Shown: in pieces, positions 17,217 to 58,361 of the stretch | Numbering within the stretch: position 1 is the stretch's first letter | Layout of the letters: every line of letters begins with the position of its first letter | Origin: Halorussus sp. MSC15.2 | GTDB taxonomy: Archaea > Halobacteriota > Halobacteria > Halobacteriales > Haladaptataceae | Direction: 5' to 3' | DNA length: 64,000 nt | NCBI RefSeq assembly: GCF_010747475.1 | Contig: NZ_VSLZ01000001.1 | Coordinates: 1,302,001 to 1,366,000, forward strand | The notes under the pieces: model-generated | Told to the model about the DNA's origin: nothing | Database searches by the model: none | What the model saw: the letters and a program-made list of their open reading frames with translations, nothing else | Translations under genes and position numbers: made by a program

Positions 17217-17302
17217 GGAAGGGTAGCTCAGTGGTAGAGTACCACCGGTTTCCCCGGTGGCAGCCTTACAGGCTTCGCGTGGTTCGACTCCCGCCCCTTC
17301 CG
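17217..17302 (+). tRNA. tRNA-like gene, apparent TTC anticodon, long variable arm; possibly a pseudo-tRNA
   Basis: 86 nt. Acceptor strands GGAAGGG and CCCTTCC pair fully. The D-arm GCTC/GAGT with AGTGGTA loop looks normal. The anticodon stem CACCG/CGGTG closes a 7-nt loop GTTTCCC, putting TTC at 34-36 (Glu by code). Three things are wrong for tRNA-Glu: a 17-nt variable region with its own AGCC/GGCT stem, an extra base between D and anticodon stems, and a T-stem that pairs only if one T is bulged (GCG-T-GG with CCCGC). No CCA is encoded. It could be a decayed tRNA, an intron-containing gene with an unusual splice, or an element-derived tRNA. Confidence 0.5.
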
Positions 17303-18917: not shown

Positions 18918-20738
18918 CTACTCGACGGTCACGCTCTTTGCGAGATTTCTCGGCTTGTCGATTGCTCGTTCGAGCAGGTCTGCCGCGTGGTACGACACCA
19001 ACTGCAACTGGACGTTCGCCAACACGCCCGCGACGTCGGGGTGGGTATCGGGAATCGTCAGCACCTCGTCGGCGTACTGGTGGACCGAGTCCTGTCCGTC
19101 GCTGGCGACCGCGACCACGGGTGCGCCCCGTGCCTCGGCCTCCTTGACGTTACCGAGGGTCTTCTCGTCGTTACGTCCGGTGAACACCGCGAACACCGGC
19201 GTGTCGGACGTGACGAGCGCGAGCGGTCCGTGTTTGAGTTCGCCCGCGGCGAACCCCTCGGCGTGTTCGTAGGATATCTCCTTGAACTTCAGCGCGCCCT
19301 CCAGCGCGACCGGTCGGACCGACCCCCGGCCGATGAAGAAGTACGCGTCGCTGTCGCGGTACTGCTCGGCGACTCGCCGGGCGCTGCTGTAGTCGAGAAT
19401 CTGCTGGACGTGGCCCGGCAGGTCCGCGAGGGCACCGAGTCGCTCGCGGGTATCGTCGGTCCACGTTCCGGTCACGTCGCGGACGAGACGCTCGGCGAGC
19501 AGCGCGAGCGAGACGACCTGCGAGGAGAACGTCTTGGTCGCCGCGACGCCGATTTCGGGTCCGGCCCGGATGAACAGCGCGTCGTCGCACTCGCGGGCCG
19601 CGGTCGAACCCACGACGTTCGTCACCGCGAGCGTGGTCGCACCCGAGGCGTTGGCCTGCCGGAGGGCGGACAGAGTGTCGGCGGTCTCGCCGCTCTGCGT
19701 GACGCCGACGACCAGCGTGTTCTCGTCCACGGGTGGCTGACCGGTCGCGTACTCGCTGGCGAGGAACGTCTGGGCGGGGACGCCGCCCGCCGAGAGGTAC
19801 TGCGCGCCGACCAGCCCGGCGTGGTACGAGGTGCCGCAGGCGACGAACTGGACCCGGTCCACGTCCGCGAAGGTCCCGGCGGGGAAGTCTTCGAGGTCGA
19901 TGTCGCCGGTGGCGGGGTCGGCCCGCCCGCGGAGGGTCTGACGGAGCGCGGCGGGTTGCTCGTGAATCTCCTTGAGCATGTAGTGGTCGTATCCGCCCTT
20001 CCCGGCGTCTTCCGGGTCCCAATCGACCGTCTGGACCGACCGCTCTACCGTCTCGCCCTCGGCGGCCGTGATGCGGTGGTCGTCGGACTCCACGACGACG
20101 ACGTCACCGTCGTCGAGATATATCACGTCGTCGGTGAAGTCGAGGAACGCGGGCACGTCGCTGGCGAGGAAGTACTCGCCGTCGCTCACGCCCAGCACCA
20201 GCGGCGACCCCCGTCGCGTGGCGTACACCGCGTGGTCGCGCTCGGTTATCATCGCCACGGCGTAACTTCCCGACAGTTCGTCGAGCGTCGCTCGGAACGC
20301 GGTCTCGGGGTCGGCACCCCTCGCGAGTTCCTCCTCCACGAGGTGCGGGATGACCTCGGTGTCGGTGTCGCTCTCGAACTCGTGACCGCGGGCCTGTAGC
20401 TCGGACTTGAGTTCGTCGTAGTTCTCGATGATACCGTTGTGGACCACGGCCACGTCGCCCGTGCAGTCGGTGTGGGGGTGAGCGTTGGCGTCGCTCGGCG
20501 GGCCGTGAGTGCTCCATCGGGTGTGCCCGATGCCGAGACCGCCGTCCGGTACCTCGTCGGCGAGCGCCTCCTTCAGGTGCGAAATCTCGCCCTCGCGCTT
20601 GAACACCTCGGGACCGCCACCGTTCTTGATGGCGACTCCGGCCGAATCGTACCCCCGGTACTCCAGATTCTCGAGTCCCGTGAGCAGTTCGTCGACGGCG
20701 TCGTCGTCACCGCCGATTCGGGCGATGATGCCACACAT
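18918..20738 (-). CDS. glmS: Glutamine--fructose-6-phosphate aminotransferase (isomerizing) GlmS
   Basis: 606 aa. Start fixed by the obligatory MCGI N-terminus: Cys2 is the nucleophile of the glutaminase domain after Met removal. The first half has LEYRGYDSAG, HTRWSTHG and HNGIIENYDELK. Two SIS isomerase domains follow (VACGTSYHAGLVGAQ, and FFIGRGSVRPVALEGALK with LKHGPLAL). It converts fructose-6-phosphate and glutamine to glucosamine-6-phosphate, the entry to UDP-GlcNAc. It is divergent from the GlmU-type gene. A copy of the RTAACAAAG element in sense orientation lies 214 bp upstream. Confidence 0.96.
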   Translation of the reverse strand: MCGIIARIGGDDDAVDELLTGLENLEYRGYDSAGVAIKNGGGPEVFKREGEISHLKEALADEVPDGGLGIGHTRWSTHGPPSDANAHPHTDCTGDVAVVHNGIIENYDELKSELQARGHEFESDTDTEVIPHLVEEELARGADPETAFRATLDELSGSYAVAMITERDHAVYATRRGSPLVLGVSDGEYFLASDVPAFLDFTDDVIYLDDGDVVVVESDDHRITAAEGETVERSVQTVDWDPEDAGKGGYDHYMLKEIHEQPAALRQTLRGRADPATGDIDLEDFPAGTFADVDRVQFVACGTSYHAGLVGAQYLSAGGVPAQTFLASEYATGQPPVDENTLVVGVTQSGETADTLSALRQANASGATTLAVTNVVGSTAARECDDALFIRAGPEIGVAATKTFSSQVVSLALLAERLVRDVTGTWTDDTRERLGALADLPGHVQQILDYSSARRVAEQYRDSDAYFFIGRGSVRPVALEGALKFKEISYEHAEGFAAGELKHGPLALVTSDTPVFAVFTGRNDEKTLGNVKEAEARGAPVVAVASDGQDSVHQYADEVLTIPDTHPDVAGVLANVQLQLVSYHAADLLERAIDKPRNLAKSVTVE

Positions 20739-20952
20739 CAGCGGCACACCCCCGTCGTCTCGGTCGCTTGCGTCGTATTGGTAGCTATCATGATTAGAGC
20801 ATCGTAGTGCGATAGTCGTTCGGGACGGTGTCGTACGGTCCGTCACGTAACCTCCGCCTATCGTTCGCGCCGTCCAATCCATCGCGCATTGTACCGTCCT
20901 GACCGCCCTCACGTGCGAGGCGGGTGCTGTTCGACAGATTGCCACCGGACCC

Positions 20953-20973
20953 CTTTGTTATACGCTCGCTGAC
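20953..20973 (-). promoter_or_regulatory. Bipartite element GTCAG-7 nt-ATAACAAAG, facing glmS
   Basis: One of 11 copies of CAR-N7-RTAACAAAG in the window. Sense orientation with respect to glmS, 214 bp ahead of its start codon. This is the most distant copy, implying a long leader or an upstream operator role. Confidence 0.6.
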
Positions 20974-21129: not shown

Positions 21130-21150
21130 TACAAGGAGGTGGTAACAAAG
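21130..21150 (+). promoter_or_regulatory. Bipartite element TACAA-7 nt-GTAACAAAG, facing the GlmU-type gene
   Basis: Sense orientation, with 24 bp between its last base and the ATG. This is the position of a TATA box for a leaderless transcript. No other TATA-like sequence is present nearby. Confidence 0.7.
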
Positions 21151-34987: not shown

Positions 34988-35008
34988 CTTTGTTATGGGC
35001 CGCCTGAG
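34988..35008 (-). promoter_or_regulatory. Bipartite element CTCAG-7 nt-ATAACAAAG, facing the GT-C-like gene
   Basis: Sense orientation, 61 bp ahead of the start codon at 34926. The upstream half CTCAGG is shared with the copy at 56359. Confidence 0.65.
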
Positions 35009-36529: not shown

Positions 36530-36550
36530 CTTTGTAATTCGCCCGTTTCA
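36530..36550 (-). promoter_or_regulatory. Variant element TGAAA-7 nt-ATTACAAAG, facing the GT4 gene
   Basis: A one-mismatch copy of RTAACAAAG (ATTACAAAG), sense orientation, 54 bp ahead of the start codon at 36475. The upstream half is also degenerate. Confidence 0.45.
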
Positions 36551-37751: not shown

Positions 37752-38875
37752 CCTGTTGACTCCGTGTTAGCACCGCTTTTCACTTTGTTATCGTCCACCT
37801 GTTCGGTGTGTAGGCGTCCCCTGTGGCGGTTTTCGGCGCGGCCGGTCGCGGCGGTACTCGGGTCGTCCGTCTCCGCTCTCTGGGTTTCCGAGTCGTCGGT
37901 CCCGACCGCTTCGGCCGCGGTTCGCGCCTCGCCGTCCACGGGGTGGGCCATCCGGTCGTAGTAGTCGGCGGGCGGGCCGACCCACGCGCCCATCTCCAGC
38001 GCTCGCTCGACGAGGCGCCGGTAGAGACGCCGATACCCCGGGAAGTCGGTCTGATTGAACAGTCGAGGGTGCCACAGCGCCGACATCACCGCGCCCTCGT
38101 CGGCGGCCTCCGCCAGCAGTCGCTCGCACTCGGACCACGCCGCCGCGAAGTCTTCGCCGGGGTCCGGAAGCGCGCACTCCATGACGGTCAGCGGGAACAC
38201 CACGAACTCGTCGTCGAACGGCCGGAGCGGCAGGTAGCCGTGGTCGAACCCGTACTCCTCGCTCGACCCGAGGCTGGCGTCGTACCGCAGGCCGAGCGCG
38301 CGGTGGTGGTCCCACGTCTCCGGCCCGCGATTGAGGTGGTGCTGGCGACCCCCGACAACCTCTTCGCCGAGCGCGGCCTCCAGTCCGGTCTTCTCCATCC
38401 GAAGGCGGTCCCTGTCGTCGTACGAGTCGTAGGAACCGTGGAGACCGACCTCCCACCCGCCGTCCCGGAGGCGGTCGAGCAGGGCGAGCATCTCGGGCGT
38501 CTCGATGTCGTACCGACCCAGATGCTCGACCCAGTAGAAGGGGTCCAGCCAGTCGCTCGGCGAGCGTTCGAGGACGTGCTGCTCGCGCAGGAAGTAGAAC
38601 GCCGAGCGGACGCCCAGCGACGCTTCGAGGTCCGTGATTTCCTCGAACTGCCACCACGGGTTCTCGCCGGGCAGCAGTCCAGTCAGTTGGCGGGGGTCGC
38701 GGTGTTCGACGGCGTGGTACACCGACTGGACCGTCTTGTACGGTCGGTCCACGTCGTGAGTCAGCAGCAGCGCGAACTCGGCGTCGGCGACCGCCGACGG
38801 GACGCCGGCGACGTGAGGGTCGTCTTCCGGTCCGGTCCGTCGCGGGTCCGCGCCCGAATCGTCGGGGTTAGGCAT
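37748..38875 (-). CDS. Polysaccharide deacetylase-like protein
   Basis: 375 aa. LLLTHDVDRPYK near residue 35 gives the metal-site Asp pair. GLHGSYDSYDD (about 155) corresponds to the substrate or metal loop of NodB-like enzymes. FPLTVMECALPDP and SALWHPRLF supply later conserved positions. The C-terminal 60 residues are a low-complexity tail. No signal peptide. It overlaps the wecB-like gene by 8 bp and the FemAB-like gene by 4 bp, placing it at the end of the Wbp-type operon. Confidence 0.8.
   Translation of the reverse strand: MPNPDDSGADPRRTGPEDDPHVAGVPSAVADAEFALLLTHDVDRPYKTVQSVYHAVEHRDPRQLTGLLPGENPWWQFEEITDLEASLGVRSAFYFLREQHVLERSPSDWLDPFYWVEHLGRYDIETPEMLALLDRLRDGGWEVGLHGSYDSYDDRDRLRMEKTGLEAALGEEVVGGRQHHLNRGPETWDHHRALGLRYDASLGSSEEYGFDHGYLPLRPFDDEFVVFPLTVMECALPDPGEDFAAAWSECERLLAEAADEGAVMSALWHPRLFNQTDFPGYRRLYRRLVERALEMGAWVGPPADYYDRMAHPVDGEARTAAEAVGTDDSETQRAETDDPSTAATGRAENRHRGRLHTEQVDDNKVKSGANTESTG
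37793..37813 (-). promoter_or_regulatory. Bipartite element AACAG-7 nt-ATAACAAAG, facing FemAB copy 1
   Basis: Sense orientation, 41 bp ahead of the FemAB start. It lies inside the 3' end of the overlapping deacetylase gene, so it is an internal element within an operon. Confidence 0.6.
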
Positions 38876-44169: not shown

Positions 44170-44190
44170 CTTTGTTATATGGCACCTTGA
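44170..44190 (-). promoter_or_regulatory. Bipartite element TCAAG-7 nt-ATAACAAAG, facing the wbp-type operon
   Basis: Perfect ATAACAAAG, with the upstream CAA shifted by one base against the consensus. Sense orientation, 141 bp ahead of the acetyltransferase start. Confidence 0.6.
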
Positions 44191-44349: not shown

Positions 44350-44370
44350 GACAGCAACTGGGTAACAAAG
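44350..44370 (+). promoter_or_regulatory. Bipartite element GACAG-7 nt-GTAACAAAG, facing the DUF7344-like/glmM unit
   Basis: Sense orientation, 112 bp ahead of ATG 44483. The GACAG half is identical to those at 49179 and 58208. Confidence 0.6.
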
Positions 44371-44482
44371 TGCCAACGTGCCAATTTCAAGGGTATGCGG
44401 CGGTCTTACCTGCGGACATCCTCCCAACCCGGTGGCTCTGAACGTGTATCGCCTCCGACGACCTGCCGATACCGACGGGAGC

Positions 44483-45043
44483 ATGTCTCGCGCTGACGAA
44501 CTCTCTCAGGACGAGGTCTTCGAGGTCCTGAAGAGTCCACGACGTCGATACGCGCTGTACTACCTCCGTCGGGAGGGCGGCGAGTCCGAACTCTCCGACC
44601 TGACCGAGCAGGTCGCGGCGTGGGAGAACGAGACGACGCCCGCGGCGCTATCGACCGACCAGCGCAAGCGCGTGTACATCTCGCTCTACCAGACCCACCT
44701 CCCGAAACTCGACGAGGCGAACATCGTGGAGTACGACCGCGACGCGGGTATCGTCCGTCTGGGCGACCGGGCGGCCGACCTCGACATCTATCTAGGCGAC
44801 GTCTCCCGCGAGGAGTTCCCGTGGGACCGATACTACCTCGCGCTGGTCGCGGCCAGTTCCGTCCTCGTCGCGGCGGTGTGGCTCGAGGTTCCGCTCTTCG
44901 GCGCGATTCCGGGACTCCTGTTGGCGACGCTCATTCTCGTCGTGTTCGGCGTGTCGGCGGTCGTCCACTTCCTGTCGTACAGGCGCGGCGGCACTGTCGG
45001 CACGCCGCCAGAACTGCATCACGCGAACGGAGAGGGCAACTGA
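44483..45043 (+). CDS. Membrane-anchored winged-helix protein (DUF7344-like)
   Basis: 186 aa from ATG 44483. The N-terminal DNA-binding-type domain has QDEVFEVLKSPRRRYALYYL, ELSDLTEQVAAWE and YISLYQTHLPKLDEANIVEY, the usual order in haloarchaeal DUF7344 proteins. Two membrane helices follow (LALVAASSVLVAAVWL, GLLLATLILVVFGVSAVVHF). A membrane-tethered regulator is likely. It is 1 bp from glmM, so both are co-expressed. As its own promoter region carries the shared element, it is a candidate regulator of the region. Confidence 0.8.
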   Translation: MSRADELSQDEVFEVLKSPRRRYALYYLRREGGESELSDLTEQVAAWENETTPAALSTDQRKRVYISLYQTHLPKLDEANIVEYDRDAGIVRLGDRAADLDIYLGDVSREEFPWDRYYLALVAASSVLVAAVWLEVPLFGAIPGLLLATLILVVFGVSAVVHFLSYRRGGTVGTPPELHHANGEGN

Positions 45044-49030: not shown

Positions 49031-49178
49031 TTCCGACTTCCGTTCAATGCTGCATTACTGATTTAAGTGTTATGGCTGCCGGTGGAACGGTCGGGACGGT
49101 CACACCGAAACCGACCGTTTCGAGCGAGTAACGGCGGCTTAACCCGGTATTTCCGCCGATAGGTGGTATCTCACGCCT

Positions 49179-49199
49179 GACAGACGGACCATAACAAAG
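49179..49199 (+). promoter_or_regulatory. Bipartite element GACAG-7 nt-ATAACAAAG, facing the phosphatase/FemAB operon
   Basis: Perfect consensus, sense orientation, 26 bp between it and ATG 49226. No other TATA-like sequence lies in that interval. Confidence 0.7.
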
Positions 49200-49225
49200 G
49201 CCGAACGAACGGTGATGGACGGTAC

Positions 49226-50860
49226 ATGGCTGACCGCCCGCAGACGAGTTTGCAGACTCTCCTCGTCGGGATAGACGCGGGGTGTCGGTCGGTCCTCGAC
49301 CCGCTCTTCGAGGCCGGTGCGGTGCCGCACTTGGAGTCGCTGTTCGAGACCGGCGCGGCCGGGCCGCTGGAGTCCCAGATTCCGCCGTGGACTCCGAGCG
49401 CGTGGCCCTCGCTGTACACCGGCGTCAACCCGGGCAAGCACGGGGTGTTCGGGTTCCTCACCTTCGACGGCTACGACTGGGACGTGGTGAACGCGACGCA
49501 CGTCCGGGAGCGAACCCTCTGGGAACTCCTCGACGGTCACGACAAGTCCAGCGTCGTGGTCAACGCGCCGGTCACGCATCCGCCGCGCGAAATCGACGGC
49601 GCGGTGGTACCGGGCTACACCGCACCGGAGGACCCCGACTGCCACCCCGAGGGACTGCTCGACGAACTCCGCGACGAAATCGGCGAGTACCGGGTGTACG
49701 CGCCTCGAGACGCGGACGGTCGGGAGGCGGTGGAGTGGTACGAGCGCCTCGTGCGGATGCGGGGCCGAGCGTTCCGCCACCTCGCCGACCGCTTCGACCC
49801 AGAGTTCGGTTTCGTCCAGTTCCAGCAGACCGACACCGTCTTCCACGAGTTCCCGGGCGACCACGGCAAGGTCCGGGCCGTCTACGAGGCGGTGGACCGG
49901 CAGTTGGGGTCGATTCTGGAGGAGTGCGACCCCGACACCGTCGTCGTCGCCAGCGACCACGGCATGGGCGAGTACACCGGCCACGAGTTCCGGCCAAACG
50001 AGTTACTCCGCGAGCGGGGTCTCGTAGAGACCACCACCGAGGGCGAGGGGATGCCCACGTGGTCCACCATCGCCGACAACCAGTTGCAGGACGGCGAGGC
50101 GGGGAAGACCGTGGCGGACGACGACCCGACCCCGCTCGAACGCGTCGTGGCGGGACTCGCCGGAGTCGGACTCACCAGTCAGCGCATCCACGCCGCCCTC
50201 GACGCGGTTGGTCTGGCCGACTTCGTGGCCGAGCGCGTCCCGGCAGACGTGGCCCGCGCCGGGTCCGAGCAGGTCGATTTCCCGGACTCGCAGGCCTACA
50301 TGCGGGACCGAATCGAACTCGGCGTCCGGGTGAATCTGGCGGGTCGCGAACCCGACGGCGTCGTCTCCGAGGCGGAGTACGACCGCCTCCGCGAGGACCT
50401 CGTGGACCTGCTCTCCGACGTCGAGACGCCCGAGGGCGAACCGGTCTTCGAGCGAGTCGCCCGGCGCGAGGAGGTCTTCTCGGGTCCCTACGTCGAGGAG
50501 GCTCCGGACGTGGTCACGGTCCCGCGCGACTACGACGAGTTCCTCTCGACCAGGGTCGGCGACGGCCAGTTCGCCCCGCCGAGCGAACCCTACAACCACA
50601 AGCGCGACGGCATCGTGGCGATTTCGGGGGACGGTGTGAATCCCAGCGCGGACCTCTCGGACGCGCACCTCTTCGACGTGGCCCCGACGATTCTGGCGAC
50701 GATGGGAGTTCCGGCGGCCGAGCGCATGGACGGGTCGGTCCTCCCGGCGGTCGGGGCGGTCGGCACGGAATCGTACCCCGCGTTCGACGCGGGCGGACAG
50801 GTTACGACTGACGACGGGGACGTGGAGGCGCGACTCGCGGACCTCGGTTACCTCGAATAA
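49226..50860 (+). CDS. Alkaline phosphatase-superfamily enzyme (nucleotide pyrophosphatase/phosphodiesterase type), copy 1
   Basis: 544 aa, no signal peptide. TLLVGIDAG supplies the first metal Asp. PPWTPSAWPSLYTG holds the likely nucleophile Thr/Ser. FGFVQFQQTDTVFHEFPGDH and VVASDHGMGEYTGHEF give further metal ligands, and DAHLFDVAPTILATMGVP closes the fold. Bacterial relatives hydrolyse or transfer phosphodiesters. Beside FemAB-like and glycan genes it may act on a nucleotide sugar, lipid-linked sugar or phospho-substituent. A paralogue follows at 52570. The FemAB gene starts 8 bp later, so they form an operon. Confidence 0.85.
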   Translation: MADRPQTSLQTLLVGIDAGCRSVLDPLFEAGAVPHLESLFETGAAGPLESQIPPWTPSAWPSLYTGVNPGKHGVFGFLTFDGYDWDVVNATHVRERTLWELLDGHDKSSVVVNAPVTHPPREIDGAVVPGYTAPEDPDCHPEGLLDELRDEIGEYRVYAPRDADGREAVEWYERLVRMRGRAFRHLADRFDPEFGFVQFQQTDTVFHEFPGDHGKVRAVYEAVDRQLGSILEECDPDTVVVASDHGMGEYTGHEFRPNELLRERGLVETTTEGEGMPTWSTIADNQLQDGEAGKTVADDDPTPLERVVAGLAGVGLTSQRIHAALDAVGLADFVAERVPADVARAGSEQVDFPDSQAYMRDRIELGVRVNLAGREPDGVVSEAEYDRLREDLVDLLSDVETPEGEPVFERVARREEVFSGPYVEEAPDVVTVPRDYDEFLSTRVGDGQFAPPSEPYNHKRDGIVAISGDGVNPSADLSDAHLFDVAPTILATMGVPAAERMDGSVLPAVGAVGTESYPAFDAGGQVTTDDGDVEARLADLGYLE

Positions 50861-52569: not shown

Positions 52570-54241
52570 ATGTCGAGCAACCACAACACCGTCGTCCTCG
52601 GCTTCGATGCGCTGGACTTCAACTACCTCGACGCCTTCGAGTCGTCGCTGCCCAACTTCGCGTCGCTGCGCGAATCGGGGGTCGAGGCACCGCTGGAATC
52701 GACCTTCCCGCCGTGGACCGGGAGCGCGTGGCCGTCGATGTACACCGGGACCGACCCGAGCCATCACGGCACCTACGGCTTCTTCCACCACACCGACGGC
52801 TACCCAAGCGACGACGTGCTGGTCACGCGCGACCACGTCCGGGAACCGGCCATCTGGAACTATTTGACCGCGATATCGGAACCCGTCGTCGTGCTGAACG
52901 TCCCGGTCACGCACCCCGCCGAACCCGTCGAGGGCGTCCTCGTCCCGGGGTATCTCGCCCACGAGGAGGACGCGGGCTATCCCGAGGGCGTCCGGGACGA
53001 ACTCTCCGAGGCCATCGGCGAAGAGTACCGAATCTACTCCGAGGCCGAGACCAGCGAGGACTGCGACGACAAGGAGGGGAGTTCGCTCGACCTGATTCGG
53101 ATGCGCGGGGAGGCCGCCGAGTACCTGCTGACCGAGTACGACTGGCGGGTCGCGGTCGTGCAGGTCCAGAAGACCGACACCGTCTTCCACGACTTCGACG
53201 ACCGCGAGGCGTTCCGCCGGGCGTACGAGCGCGCCGACGAGGTCCTCGGCCGGGTGCGAGCGGCCGCGGACGACGCCAACGTCGTGGTCTGTTCGGACCA
53301 CGGCATGGGTCGGGTGGACGGCTACACCGTCTACGTCAACGAGATTCTCCGGAACGCCGGGTTCGTCGAGACCACCACCGACTCGTCGGGACCGAGCCTG
53401 ATGACCGAGAAGGCGACCCTGACCGGGACGGCGTCGGACAGCGACGGGTCGGCGGCCGCGTCCGGAGGCGGTCCGTCGGTCACCGGACAGGTCGTCTCGG
53501 CCGCGACGGCCACGCTCGACCGGGTCGGGGTCTCCCCGGGCGACGCCTACGCGCTGGCGACGCGGCTGGGTCTCGGGGGGGTTCCTCTCGAACGTTCTCT
53601 CCTACGAGGCGGTGTCGGCCGCCAGCGAGGGCGTGGATTGGGCCGAATCGACGGCCTACTGCCGGAGCATCGAACTCGGGGCGCGGGTGAATCTGGCGGG
53701 CCGCGAACCCGAGGGCGTCGTCACGCCCGAGGAGTACGAGCAGGTCCGCGACGACCTGATTCGGACGCTCTCGGACCTCCGCACGCCCGACGGCGACCCC
53801 GTCTTCGAGTGGGTCAAACGGCGCGAGGAGGTGTACGACGGTCCCTTCGCGGAGTACGCCTGCGACGTGCTGTTCATGCCAGCCGACATGAACCACGTCC
53901 TCAGCACGAACCTCATCGGACAGGAGTTCGTGCCGGTGAACGACCACGACCACAAGCGCGACGGGGTGTTCCTCGCCGCGGGTCCGGCGTTCGAGGACGC
54001 CAGCGCCGGGTCCGTCCCCGACCGCCTCTCGCTCACCGACGTGGCCCCGATAGCGATGGCTGCCGCGGGTCTCGACGTGCCCGCCCGGATGACCGGCGAG
54101 GTGCCCGAGGACCTGCTCTCGGAGTCGGTCGCGCGGGCCGACTACGGCGAGGTCCCCTTCGGCAGCGACGACTCGCGGGGCGACGGCCCGGCCGACGACG
54201 GGTCGGTCGAGGAGCGTCTGAGCGACCTCGGCTACATCTGA
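52570..54241 (+). pseudogene. Alkaline phosphatase-superfamily enzyme, copy 2, frameshifted at a G7 run
   Basis: The first 337 codons from ATG 52570 give the catalytic half: VVLGFDALDFNYLD, PPWTGSAWPSMYTG, VQVQKTDTVFHDFDD and VVCSDHGMGRVDGYTVY. The frame is lost at seven G (53575-53581). The remainder (SAASEGVDWAESTAYCRSIE through EERLSDLGYI) continues in another frame to TGA at 54239-54241. Deleting one G gives a 556-aa protein that aligns with copy 1 end to end. Gene length is one more than a multiple of three. As in cheD, this is a sequencing error or a true slippage/inactivation. Confidence 0.85.
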
Positions 54242-54407
54242 GCGGTCCGCGACTTCTGGCCTCCCTGCGGTCGTCGCGTGCTGGCGCAATCGCCGTGCCG
54301 TGCGGTCTTCAGTTGCTCAAGCAGTAATCAGCTTCTTGCTCTCGTTCTACGAACGTCGTTCTCCGGCCTCCAGCACTACGTCACCGTCTTGATTCCTCAC
54401 CTCCGTC

Positions 54408-54912: not shown

Positions 54913-56334
54913 TCAGCAGGACCCGTCCGTGGTGAGTTCGGTGGTCTTCACCGTCGCGGACTCGCTGACGACCGCCTCGCCGCTCACGTCGATGGTCGAG
55001 TTACTGACCGAACAGCCCTCGGCGTCGGTGACCGAGATGCCGTCACGGGACCCGCGAGGGTGCTGGATGCAGACGTTCTCGAACTGGCAGTCGTCGCGGC
55101 CGTTGGCGCGCACCGCTCTCCCGTCGCTCGCGGTGCCGGAGATGCGGAGACCCCGCGCCCTGAACCGCGTCCGCTTCGGGAGCGCGCCCATACTCGGGAC
55201 GGTCTGGCCCTGCATGCTCTCGATGGGGTCCCGGACGTTGACCGCGAGGGTGTCGGCGTCGGTCCGAATCCGGGTGTTCTCCACGACGGCCTCGCCGAAC
55301 TGCTGGCCGACGACGATACCGCCGGAACTGTAGGTGCCGGTGAGGTCGGTGATGGCGATGTCGCAGTCGCGGATGCGGACGCTGCCGCCCTCCTCGGCCC
55401 AGATACCGCGCATGTTCGGCTTGTGCTGGGGCTGTTTGGGGTTGTCCACGCGCACGGTCACGCCGCGGACCAGCGCGCCGTTCGTCCCGCCGCCGACCCG
55501 GACCTGCTCGATGCCGTTGTTGGCGTAGTACCCCCCGAGGACCCGGAGCGGGCCGGAGTGGTACGCCGCGTACAGTCCCTCGCGCCAGTGCTCGATTCGG
55601 CAGTCCCGAAAGGTGAGTCGGCCGACGCTGTCGGGGAACACGTAGAGGGCGTGGCCGTTGGTAGAGCCGTCGGGGAGCGAGAGGTTCTCGAACCGGAGGT
55701 CGGCGTTCGGGTCCGCGGCGGCGACCTCGAAGGCCGTCCGAGGTGCGCGTCGGTGCCCGCGGACCGTCACGTCCTTCACGGCGTTGGTACCGCCGCTCAC
55801 CGAGATGTGCGACACCGGCGCGACGTTGTCGCCGCGACAGTCGATGGTGAACCCCGCGAACAGGAGTTCGCGGAGGTCGCCCCACATCAGCCAGTAGTTG
55901 ACGTCCTTCGGCGGGACGAGCGCGGCGTCCTCGCCGACGATGCCGAGGTTCCGGTAGCCGGTCACTCGCCACTCGTCGAGTCGGTAACGGCCCGACGGGA
56001 AGTAGAGCAAGGTGTCGTCGCCGACGTGCTCTTCGAGAATTGGATTTATCGGCTCTCCGCCCGAGGCGTCCGCGCCCGCCTCCGCGACGTTCACGACCGT
56101 CCCGTAGTCGGCCGCCTCGACGAGGTCGTTGGTGGTCTGGGTCGGGTCGGTCTCCGTCCGAGTCGCCGTCTCGGCAGTCGCACCCGTGGTCGTCTCCGTG
56201 CGTCGAGCCGTGGTCTCTCGGGTCGTGGTATCGGGGGCGAACTCGCCGCACCCCGCGAGCGACCCGGCGACGACGGTCGCTCCGGCGGCGCGGAGCCACG
56301 CACGTCTCGTCGGCGGACTCTCGTCGTCGTTCAC
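54913..56334 (-). CDS. Right-handed beta-helix lipoprotein (Tat/lipobox)
   Basis: 473 aa from GTG 56332-56334. An ATG at 56361 overlaps the promoter element and is less likely. A twin-arginine signal TRRAWLRAAG ends in the lipobox SLAGC, so the mature protein is probably lipid-anchored at Cys. A Thr-rich linker leads to DLVEAADYGTVVNVAEAGAD, the usual start of pectin-lyase-like helices. Repeated coils follow (VSGGTNAVKDVTVRGH, LTFRDCRIEHWREGLY, VRIRDCDIAITDLTGTY). Probably binds or cleaves polysaccharide outside the cell. Confidence 0.82.
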   Translation of the reverse strand: MNDDESPPTRRAWLRAAGATVVAGSLAGCGEFAPDTTTRETTARRTETTTGATAETATRTETDPTQTTNDLVEAADYGTVVNVAEAGADASGGEPINPILEEHVGDDTLLYFPSGRYRLDEWRVTGYRNLGIVGEDAALVPPKDVNYWLMWGDLRELLFAGFTIDCRGDNVAPVSHISVSGGTNAVKDVTVRGHRRAPRTAFEVAAADPNADLRFENLSLPDGSTNGHALYVFPDSVGRLTFRDCRIEHWREGLYAAYHSGPLRVLGGYYANNGIEQVRVGGGTNGALVRGVTVRVDNPKQPQHKPNMRGIWAEEGGSVRIRDCDIAITDLTGTYSSGGIVVGQQFGEAVVENTRIRTDADTLAVNVRDPIESMQGQTVPSMGALPKRTRFRARGLRISGTASDGRAVRANGRDDCQFENVCIQHPRGSRDGISVTDAEGCSVSNSTIDVSGEAVVSESATVKTTELTTDGSC

Positions 56335-56358: not shown

Positions 56359-56379
56359 CATTGTTATAGGTGGCCTGAG
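56359..56379 (-). promoter_or_regulatory. Bipartite element CTCAG-7 nt-ATAACAATG, facing the beta-helix lipoprotein
   Basis: One mismatch in the downstream half (ATAACAATG). Sense orientation, 24 bp before the GTG start, the same spacing as at 21175 and 49226. This spacing is one reason to prefer the GTG start. Confidence 0.6.
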
Positions 56380-57102: not shown

Positions 57103-58119
57103 TCACGCGGACACGTTCACCCAGACGTGGACGTTGCGATAGGCGTTCTCGGTGGTCGGGTCCGCCGGCGGGTCGCCCTCGTAGACGAGGTAGACCAGTC
57201 GGAGGTCCTCGCCGGTCATCGTCGGCGTCACCTCGTGGGTGGTCCGCCACTCCTGACCCGCGCCGACGGTCGGCGTGAACGTCGCCAGCGTCCGGTCCTC
57301 TACCACCTTCGCGCCGCCGTCGTCGGCCTGCCTGACCCGTTGGAGTTCGACCACGACCGAGTAACTCGTCTGCTCGCCCTCCTGGTTCGCCAGTTCGACC
57401 ACCAGCGGTCGGCTCTCGCCGCGTTCGAAGTTCTCCGGGTAGTCGTCCGCGACGAGTTCGCCGGTCTCGTTCTGGGAGAGCAGCGAGACGCCGGTGAACT
57501 CCTGACTGTCACCCGGCGCGGCCACCGCGTAGCCGACGGCGGCCACGGCGACGACGACGGCGGCCGCGAGACCGACGTTGACCGCCCTGTCGGCCAGCGA
57601 CCCCGTGGAGACGGCCCGCCGACCGCCGTCGGCCCACGCCCGAATCGAGAGCGCGAACCGGCGGTCGGCCGGACGCCGGAGGCGGCGCACCCCGGCCGCG
57701 GCGGAGAGGGAGACCGTCAGCGCCGCCACCGAGAGCAGGACGGTTCCCGGGTCGATGGCCCACGGCGAGACCGCGAGCGCGACGCCGAGTATCGGGAGTA
57801 CCGCCAGACTGAGACCGAACCCGAGCGCCGCGCGCTCGGTCTCGACGAGTCCGTGTTGACGGACGGCGGCGAGCGTCCGACCGACCGCGGCGTCGTCCGG
57901 CGTCGCACCGGGGAACAGCAGCGCGACGAGCGCGTAGCCCGGTGCGAACAACACCAGCGGGAGACCGACTGCGACCCCCAGCGGCGACCCGTACACGCCG
58001 GGTCGGGACAGGAGCGCGACCGCGACCACGGCGTACCCGACGATAGCGAGCAGGTCGAGCGGGAGCGTCGGGCGGGCGAGGCGGTCCACGAGCGTCTCGT
58101 CTGTCGTTCCGTGACTCAT
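57103..58119 (-). CDS. DUF1616-family membrane protein
   Basis: 338 aa from ATG 58117-58119; an ATG at 58194 would add 25 unlike residues. The first half has two pairs of helices (LLAIVGYAVVAVALLSRP, LGVAVGLPLVLFAPGYALVA, then ALGFGLSLAVLPILGVALAV). A fifth helix near 190-210 leads to an outer beta domain with QNETGELVADDYPENF and WRTTHEVTPTMTGEDLRLVY. DUF1616 proteins are common in archaeal surface-glycan loci. Function unknown. A sense-oriented element lies 88 bp upstream. Confidence 0.85.
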   Translation of the reverse strand: MSHGTTDETLVDRLARPTLPLDLLAIVGYAVVAVALLSRPGVYGSPLGVAVGLPLVLFAPGYALVALLFPGATPDDAAVGRTLAAVRQHGLVETERAALGFGLSLAVLPILGVALAVSPWAIDPGTVLLSVAALTVSLSAAAGVRRLRRPADRRFALSIRAWADGGRRAVSTGSLADRAVNVGLAAAVVVAVAAVGYAVAAPGDSQEFTGVSLLSQNETGELVADDYPENFERGESRPLVVELANQEGEQTSYSVVVELQRVRQADDGGAKVVEDRTLATFTPTVGAGQEWRTTHEVTPTMTGEDLRLVYLVYEGDPPADPTTENAYRNVHVWVNVSA

Positions 58120-58207
58120 GGGTCGTCCGGGGAGGCGGCGACGTTCGTCCGAGACTGACCGAGGAGAGTTCGACGGCTCATTACACCCGGCCAACGCTGG
58201 ATTGCTA

Positions 58208-58228
58208 CTTTGTTATCACCCGACTGTC
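58208..58228 (-). promoter_or_regulatory. Bipartite element GACAG-7 nt-ATAACAAAG, facing the DUF1616 gene
   Basis: Perfect consensus, sense orientation, 88 bp ahead of ATG 58119. Confidence 0.6.
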
Positions 58229-58340: not shown

Positions 58341-58361
58341 GACAACTCGCGTATAACAAAG
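58341..58361 (+). promoter_or_regulatory. Bipartite element GACAA-7 nt-ATAACAAAG, facing the PGF-CTERM protein gene
   Basis: Perfect downstream half. Sense orientation, 143 bp ahead of the GTG at 58505, so a leader of about 115 nt is implied if it acts as the core promoter. Confidence 0.6.

Follow-up and report, generated by a model that had tools for sequence, protein, structure and literature searches.

The window, by which the whole 64-kb stretch of DNA analysed here is meant, comprises positions 1302001-1366000 of a contig of Halorussus sp. MSC15.2, whose draft genome amounts to 4.4 Mb and is 98% complete. The genes considered here are preceded by the element RTAACAAAG or a variant of it (Table 1). 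Nine exact matches to RTAACAAAG are present in the window, as compared to 0.03 expected from shuffled sequences, and inclusion of the conserved variants ATTACAAAG (36530) and ATAACAATG (56359) raises the total to 11 sites. With position 0 denoting the first base of the element, an A is located at -9 in all 11 sites, and A or T at +22 in ten of them, as read from the sequences. Start codons were assigned from the open reading frame, the spacing, and conservation. The phosphodiesterase family protein starting at 49226 has its closest named relative in Halorussus aquaticus (95% identical). A second gene of the PF01663 phosphodiesterase family in the same cluster (52570-54327, +) is not preceded by the element, and the sole Rfam match within the window is a tRNA gene (17217-17302, +).

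Table 1. Element sites and associated features in the 64-kb window
Feature	Position	Strand	Remarks
Core element ATAACAAAG	49191..49199	+	Phosphodiesterase promoter; 26 nt before ATG 49226; present in orthologs of many genera
CAG with nearly invariant A at -9 (49182) in its centre	49181..49183	+	Based on the counts at -9
Region of A/T steps phased at 10.5 bp	49140..49180	+	Average over the site set; not every step is present here
'-10' A/T (WW) position, +22/+23	49213..49214	+	TG at the 49226 promoter
Predicted transcription start, leaderless	49224..49226	+	At ATG 49226; inferred from both rulers
Type I phosphodiesterase/nucleotide pyrophosphatase family protein	49226..50860	+	PF01663
ATAACAAAG, GlmS-like gene (SIS and glutamine amidotransferase)	20953..20961	-	MCG start 214 nt downstream
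GTAACAAAG, sugar nucleotidyltransferase	21142..21150	+	24 nt before ATG 21175
ATAACAAAG, membrane-protein-like ORF	34988..34996	-	61 nt before ATG 34926; without Pfam match
Variant ATTACAAAG, glycosyltransferase	36530..36538	-	54 nt before ATG 36475
ATAACAAAG, FemAB/GNAT-like protein	37783..37791	-	31 nt before ATG 37751
ATAACAAAG, hexapeptide acyltransferase	44170..44178	-	141 nt before GTG 44028; A/T present at +22/+23
GTAACAAAG with GTTAC-N17-GTAAC, DUF7344 promoter	44362..44370	+	Retained in every Halorussus/Haladaptatus locus and in Actinarchaeum
DUF7344 protein, candidate regulator	44483..45043	+	PF24035; winged helix and two predicted membrane helices
Variant ATAACAATG (one mismatch), secreted beta-helix protein	56359..56367	-	24 nt before GTG 56334
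ATAACAAAG, DUF1616 gene	58208..58216	-	ATG 58119 at 88 nt; ATG of short ORF at 26 nt
ATAACAAAG, PKD-domain secreted protein	58353..58361	+	89 nt before GTG 58451

In the whole genome, RTAACAAAG was detected 46 times, while the reversed pattern yielded nine matches. Roughly one in five matches in the genome probably arose by chance, but a chance origin of the element as such is ruled out by the excess over shuffled sequences and the reversed pattern and by the accumulation of start codons described below. An A at -9 is found in 38 of the 46 sites (23% of composition-matched 9-mers, p 1e-17), and an ATG follows within 23-36 nt in 28 of them (19% of control 9-mers, p 3e-10). For G019, a genome of the Haladaptatus group, the corresponding numbers are 34 and 19 out of 44. 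Loci outside the family gave 61/65 for A at -9 and 46/65 for a nearby ATG, a set containing many orthologs of a single gene. Related genomes do not provide independent site sets.

Spacing, core position and upstream sequences

When the distances from the element to the next ATG were pooled, a sharp edge became apparent at 24 nt, with 11 sites at this distance versus four across all of 16-22 nt. To compare the element with ordinary promoters of the same genomes, 66 canonical promoters were aligned on their W-rich hexamer. Their boxes conform to TTTAWW and are preceded by AA at -4/-3 (A 0.52/0.39), and they fill the same slot as the element: the W-rich hexamer peaks at -34 to -30 before the ATG in 119 genes without the element and at -35 to -31 in genes carrying it. 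RTAACAAAG itself does not match the TTTAWW consensus of the 66 aligned promoters, and the AA resembling a BRE is absent in front of the element sites (A 0.17 at -4, G/C 81%). A second A/T-rich block at the TATA position was not detected in element promoters.

Differential RNA-seq of Haloferax volcanii defined promoters by a BRE, a TTWT TATA box, and WW at -10, with 72% of the transcripts being leaderless (PMC4983044); for the '-10' WW element, this article names Brenneis et al. 2007 as the original source. The element promoters show a comparable signal. Among sites with A at -9, A or T is present at +22 in 89%, 82%, and 87% of cases across the three site sets, and the values for +22/+23 are still 88%/82% at 33 sites in which no start codon follows within 20-39 nt. 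A weaker A/T peak was also seen at +13/+14, and the '-10' signal may in part be a continuation of the upstream phasing described below. A fixed distance, as is characteristic of archaeal core promoters, whose box is centred at about -26 to -30 relative to the start, is thus apparent both in the start-codon edge at 24 nt and in the '-10' A/T. Since the latter distance is the same whether or not a site is leadered, a fixed start is expected everywhere, and from both rulers transcription is predicted to begin about 24-26 nt past the last G of the element, leadered sites included. These data support the view that the element occupies the TATA slot at about -33 to -25.

Upstream of the element, A/T peaks are located at -9, -20, -30, -41, and -51, which corresponds to a period of 10.5 bp. 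The phasing power of 0.24 was reached by none of 500 shuffles, whereas canonical promoters aligned on their TATA box have a power of 0.008 at 10.5 bp, i.e. phasing is absent. A simple palindrome centred on the A at -9 fits only partially, as direct 11-bp and inverted arrangements score equally, and the site is therefore described as a phased array. In relatives of DUF7344 belonging to family f7, the promoter reads GTTAC-N7-GTAAC-N6-GTAAC. Activator-dependent archaeal promoters, such as those served by EarA, GvpE, or Ptr2, are recognized by a non-consensus core combined with conserved sites just upstream, and this combination is found here in the missing BRE, the deviation from TTTAWW, the A at -9, and the array.

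The proposal in the preliminary description that the element stands in for the TATA box holds at the sequence level, given the shared slot with TTTAWW, the 24-nt edge, and the constant '-10' distance. Its expectation that no canonical TATA box would be located elsewhere in these promoters was also borne out. Replacement of a TATA box does not fully describe the element, which forms the proximal end of an extended composite site common to a conserved regulon. The A at -9, the 10.5-bp A/T array, and the surface regulon had been overlooked.

Special basal factors were considered as readers of such a site. The MSC15.2 genome harbors one TBP gene and about eight TFB genes, and PMC2121645 contains the proposal that TFB/TBP variants sort promoter classes in Halobacterium. 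One of the TFB paralogs, endowed with a special DNA preference, could therefore read this promoter class, DUF7344 being just one of the targets. Such a scheme appears unlikely, as TFB contacts adjoin the TATA box and do not follow a phased array out to -51, and no TFB-like gene is driven by any of the 46 sites among the products inspected. A dedicated TBP paralog would be conceivable from the extra TBP genes of some relatives, but enrichment of the element is similar in genomes with one or several TBPs. Moreover, since the 98% complete assembly contains a single TBP gene (a 195-aa frame comprising two half-repeats), this possibility is for practical purposes excluded. Several congeners possess extra divergent TBPs.

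The regulon, its leaders and its conservation

Around 35 genes carry the element, most of them related to the cell surface. Sugar-related targets are sugar nucleotidyltransferase, GlmS-like, glycosyltransferase, hexapeptide acyltransferase, and polysaccharide biosynthesis epimerase/dehydratase-like genes. Further targets specify the phosphodiesterase, PMT-like, PKD, and PQQ-repeat proteins, an archaeal pilin, DUF1616, and DUF7344 (three genes). The product of the gene downstream of 58353 gave a borderline PGF-CTERM match.

The preliminary description had counted the same 11 sites and had correctly given spacings of 26, 24, and 24 nt for the genes at 49226, 21175, and 56334, but the start codon at 56334 is a GTG rather than an ATG. 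The element of the latter gene is the one-mismatch variant ATAACAATG, which is kept together with a spacing of 24-25 nt in six Halorussus loci. For the remaining sites, distances of 41-214 bp had been reported; these are right except for the site at 37783. In addition, 44362 and 58208 had been placed among the leadered sites, but a short conserved ORF starts there with an ATG at a leaderless distance of 24 and 26 nt, respectively. From the spacing, leaderless mRNAs are predicted for 49226, 21175, and 56334 and for the short ORFs starting at 44395 and 58181.

The short ORF behind the 44362 element (44395-44496, +) overlaps the likely ATG of the DUF7344 gene at 44483. Its ATG is located at 24 nt in all eleven loci of the DUF7344 cluster (including L075-L083 and L224), and the peptide is partly conserved in Halorussus (MRRSxLR), while in Haladaptatus it consists of six codons only. 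In front of DUF1616, a short ORF beginning with MSRRTLL (58116-58181, -) ends with a TGA overlapping the DUF1616 ATG (ATGA), which suggests translational coupling of the two. In the Halorussus loci L075-L081 this ORF starts at 25-26 nt as well, with similar initial residues (MSRR). A second DUF7344 gene (L006, L123, L220) is preceded in Halorussus and Haladaptatus by the mini-ORF MLGYEQGVA, 25-26 nt after the element and predicted to be leaderless, which stops just before the start of the gene. From these short ORFs at leaderless distance it appears that 'leadered' genes can still open with a leaderless start. For the GlmS-like gene, a leader of about 200 nt is predicted (20738-20952, -); its Haladaptatus ortholog is also element-driven, with the ORF starting at 204 nt. 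No Rfam structures were found in the long leaders.

Comparisons with G019 revealed about 20 element-driven genes common to both genomes, many of which have equal or nearly equal spacings in the two, as in the pairs 24/24, 26/27, 31/31, 27/27, 58/57, and 84/83 nt. The 31-nt spacing of the FemAB/GNAT-like gene (37751) is also found in Haladaptatus. For the phosphodiesterase gene, conservation extends further. Orthologs with the element 23-27 nt before the start are present in Halorussus, Haladaptatus, Natrinema, Natrialba, Halovivax, Haloterrigena, Halohasta, Halosimplex, Halorarius, Natribaculum, Saliphagus, and Actinarchaeum, and others retain variants, e.g. ATAACGAAG, ATAACCAAG, and ATAACAAAA. 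When 145 Halobacteria genomes were searched, a clear genome-wide excess was confined mainly to the Halorussus/Haladaptatus family and a few other genomes, so that enrichment is not a general trait of haloarchaea. In Actinarchaeum halophilum and a relative (L094, L096), far from Halorussus, a divergent pair of elements 147 bp apart was observed, and a DUF7344 gene adjoins the phosphodiesterase gene, all with the element. The locus of Halohasta litorea (L120) has five element sites in 21.6 kb, its DUF7344 gene there being without one.

As a single gene cluster accounts for many of the sites and paralogs are present among the targets, the element could be regarded as an ordinary, tolerated TATA variant that was inherited with the genes and has no dedicated regulator. 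A strict 9-mer with A at -9 and the array at unrelated, scattered genes, in a pattern common to Halorussus and Haladaptatus, renders this very improbable.

DUF7344 as the probable reader of the promoter

The DUF7344 protein encoded in the window matches PF24035 with 112 bits, the gathering score being 27.8. In its AlphaFold2 model (pLDDT 86), a winged helix precedes two long helices with the appearance of membrane spans; the predicted fold is helix-helix-strand-helix-long helix-two strands, with pLDDT values above 90 for most of it. Foldseek searches with the model gave a best E of 0.08. The top matches obtained with VIA-align are RosR-DNA complexes (Z 9.7, 15% identity), an ordinary level for winged helices. 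RosR of Halobacterium salinarum (winged helix, PDB 6qfd and others) thus provides the closest structural matches of the putative DNA-binding domain, but its entries are chains of 110-116 residues lacking the two extra long helices of DUF7344. No paper on DUF7344 was returned by a full-text literature search, and matches for the core motif together with haloarchaea were unrelated by title and abstract.

Several observations associate this protein family with the element. The genome contains 29 DUF7344 hits, and the element is present at precisely the three that score highest. Nine related DUF7344 genes of two other families, f7 and f4, have GTAACAAAG and A at -9 shortly upstream, and this promoter also precedes the Actinarchaeum gene. 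Most less similar DUF7344 genes are without it. In a quickly built tree of 67 DUF7344 proteins with some long branches, the element label required five changes, as compared to 21 when shuffled. A DUF7344 gene was detected in 28 of 40 loci whose phosphodiesterase gene carries the element and in 2 of 14 others (p 4e-4, relatedness ignored). Of the 40 loci, the remaining 12 lack a DUF7344 gene within reach, Natrialbaceae keep the element at the phosphodiesterase gene but not at a nearby DUF7344 gene, and DUF7344 is near-universal in haloarchaea, unlike the genome-wide element excess. Judged from this association, DUF7344 is probably the reader of the element, which would then mark a shared circuit run by a family of putative membrane-anchored DNA-binding proteins.

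Such a protein, or another one, might also act as a repressor: its operator would overlap a weak TATA box, TBP would be kept from binding, and the fixed position would reflect the place where repression works. The site does span the TATA slot, many repressors are found among the closest structural matches of DUF7344, and autoregulation is common among repressors. Without a separate canonical TATA box or BRE, however, the strict 9-mer must itself serve the basal factors, and operators could differ in their register to the start from gene to gene. Repression is therefore regarded as rather improbable.

Features of the element promoters recur in known systems. With the canonical haloarchaeal promoter, for which leaderless transcripts are usual, they share the slot relative to the predicted start and the '-10' A/T position. 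The canonical box is degenerate, of the TTTAWW type, accompanied by a BRE, and without phasing in these genomes, whereas the element promoters have a strict 9-mer, no BRE, and a phased array. The EarA-dependent fla (archaellum) promoter of Methanococcus maripaludis (PMC5512572) is similar in having several short sites directly upstream of a weak core, surface-structure genes as targets, and a winged helix-turn-helix activator, as predicted for DUF7344. There, a single regulator serves a promoter inactive alone, as would be the case for the element promoter. EarA sites, however, lie upstream of a consensus TATA box with a poor BRE, whereas here the TATA-slot sequence itself is the mark of the regulon, and the two proteins are set apart by family name. 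The haloarchaeal GvpE system of the gas vesicle promoters in Halobacterium and Haloferax (PMC4390858) resembles the arrangement proposed here in an activator site adjoining the BRE at a fixed close distance, weak basal promoters, and an activator gene under its own target site. GvpE, however, is leucine-zipper-like and acts on two 8-nt boxes with normal BRE/TATA in one gene cluster, in contrast to a scattered regulon. The haloarchaeal surface regulator CsmR (PMC13286277) was dismissed, its site TATCA-N4-TGATA being different.

Archaeal activators accompany promoters with TATA or BRE off consensus (PMC5512572), from which an activator-dependent core promoter is deduced. We consider it fairly probable that the element promoters are of this kind, with a non-consensus TATA box, no BRE, a start set about 24-26 nt downstream, and DUF7344 as the probable reader. 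RTAACAAAG would represent the proximal portion of a regulated core promoter of composite structure that occupies the TATA slot. As the element is not TTTAWW and lacks the BRE-like AA, poor binding of TBP/TFB alone is expected, and an activator on the phased array (A at -9; steps at -20, -30, -41, and -51) would probably recruit these factors. The presumably autoregulated and apparently membrane-anchored winged-helix protein DUF7344 is the best candidate for this activator. From the sequences we infer activation rather than repression, as well as TBP binding, the 5' ends, and the role of DUF7344. A start codon at about 24-26 nt would result in a leaderless mRNA, and otherwise a leader of defined length would be formed, sometimes with a leaderless short ORF first. 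A more far-reaching version, in which membrane-tethered DUF7344 itself reads the TATA slot along the phased array and nucleates recruitment of TFB and polymerase, would constitute an alternative, membrane-coupled core promoter for the whole surface regulon; it is regarded as rather improbable.

Archaeal promoters are usually described as BRE plus TATA box with regulators beside them. In Halorussus, a strict regulon-specific sequence supplants the TATA consensus at about 35 genes, and it does so throughout the family and, in the case of one gene, in numerous haloarchaeal genera. The element yields a prediction of transcription starts to nearly the single base and points to DUF7344 as a protein that may regulate genes for surface polysaccharides and the matrix. 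It may serve to examine the extent to which an activator can assume TATA recognition in archaea.
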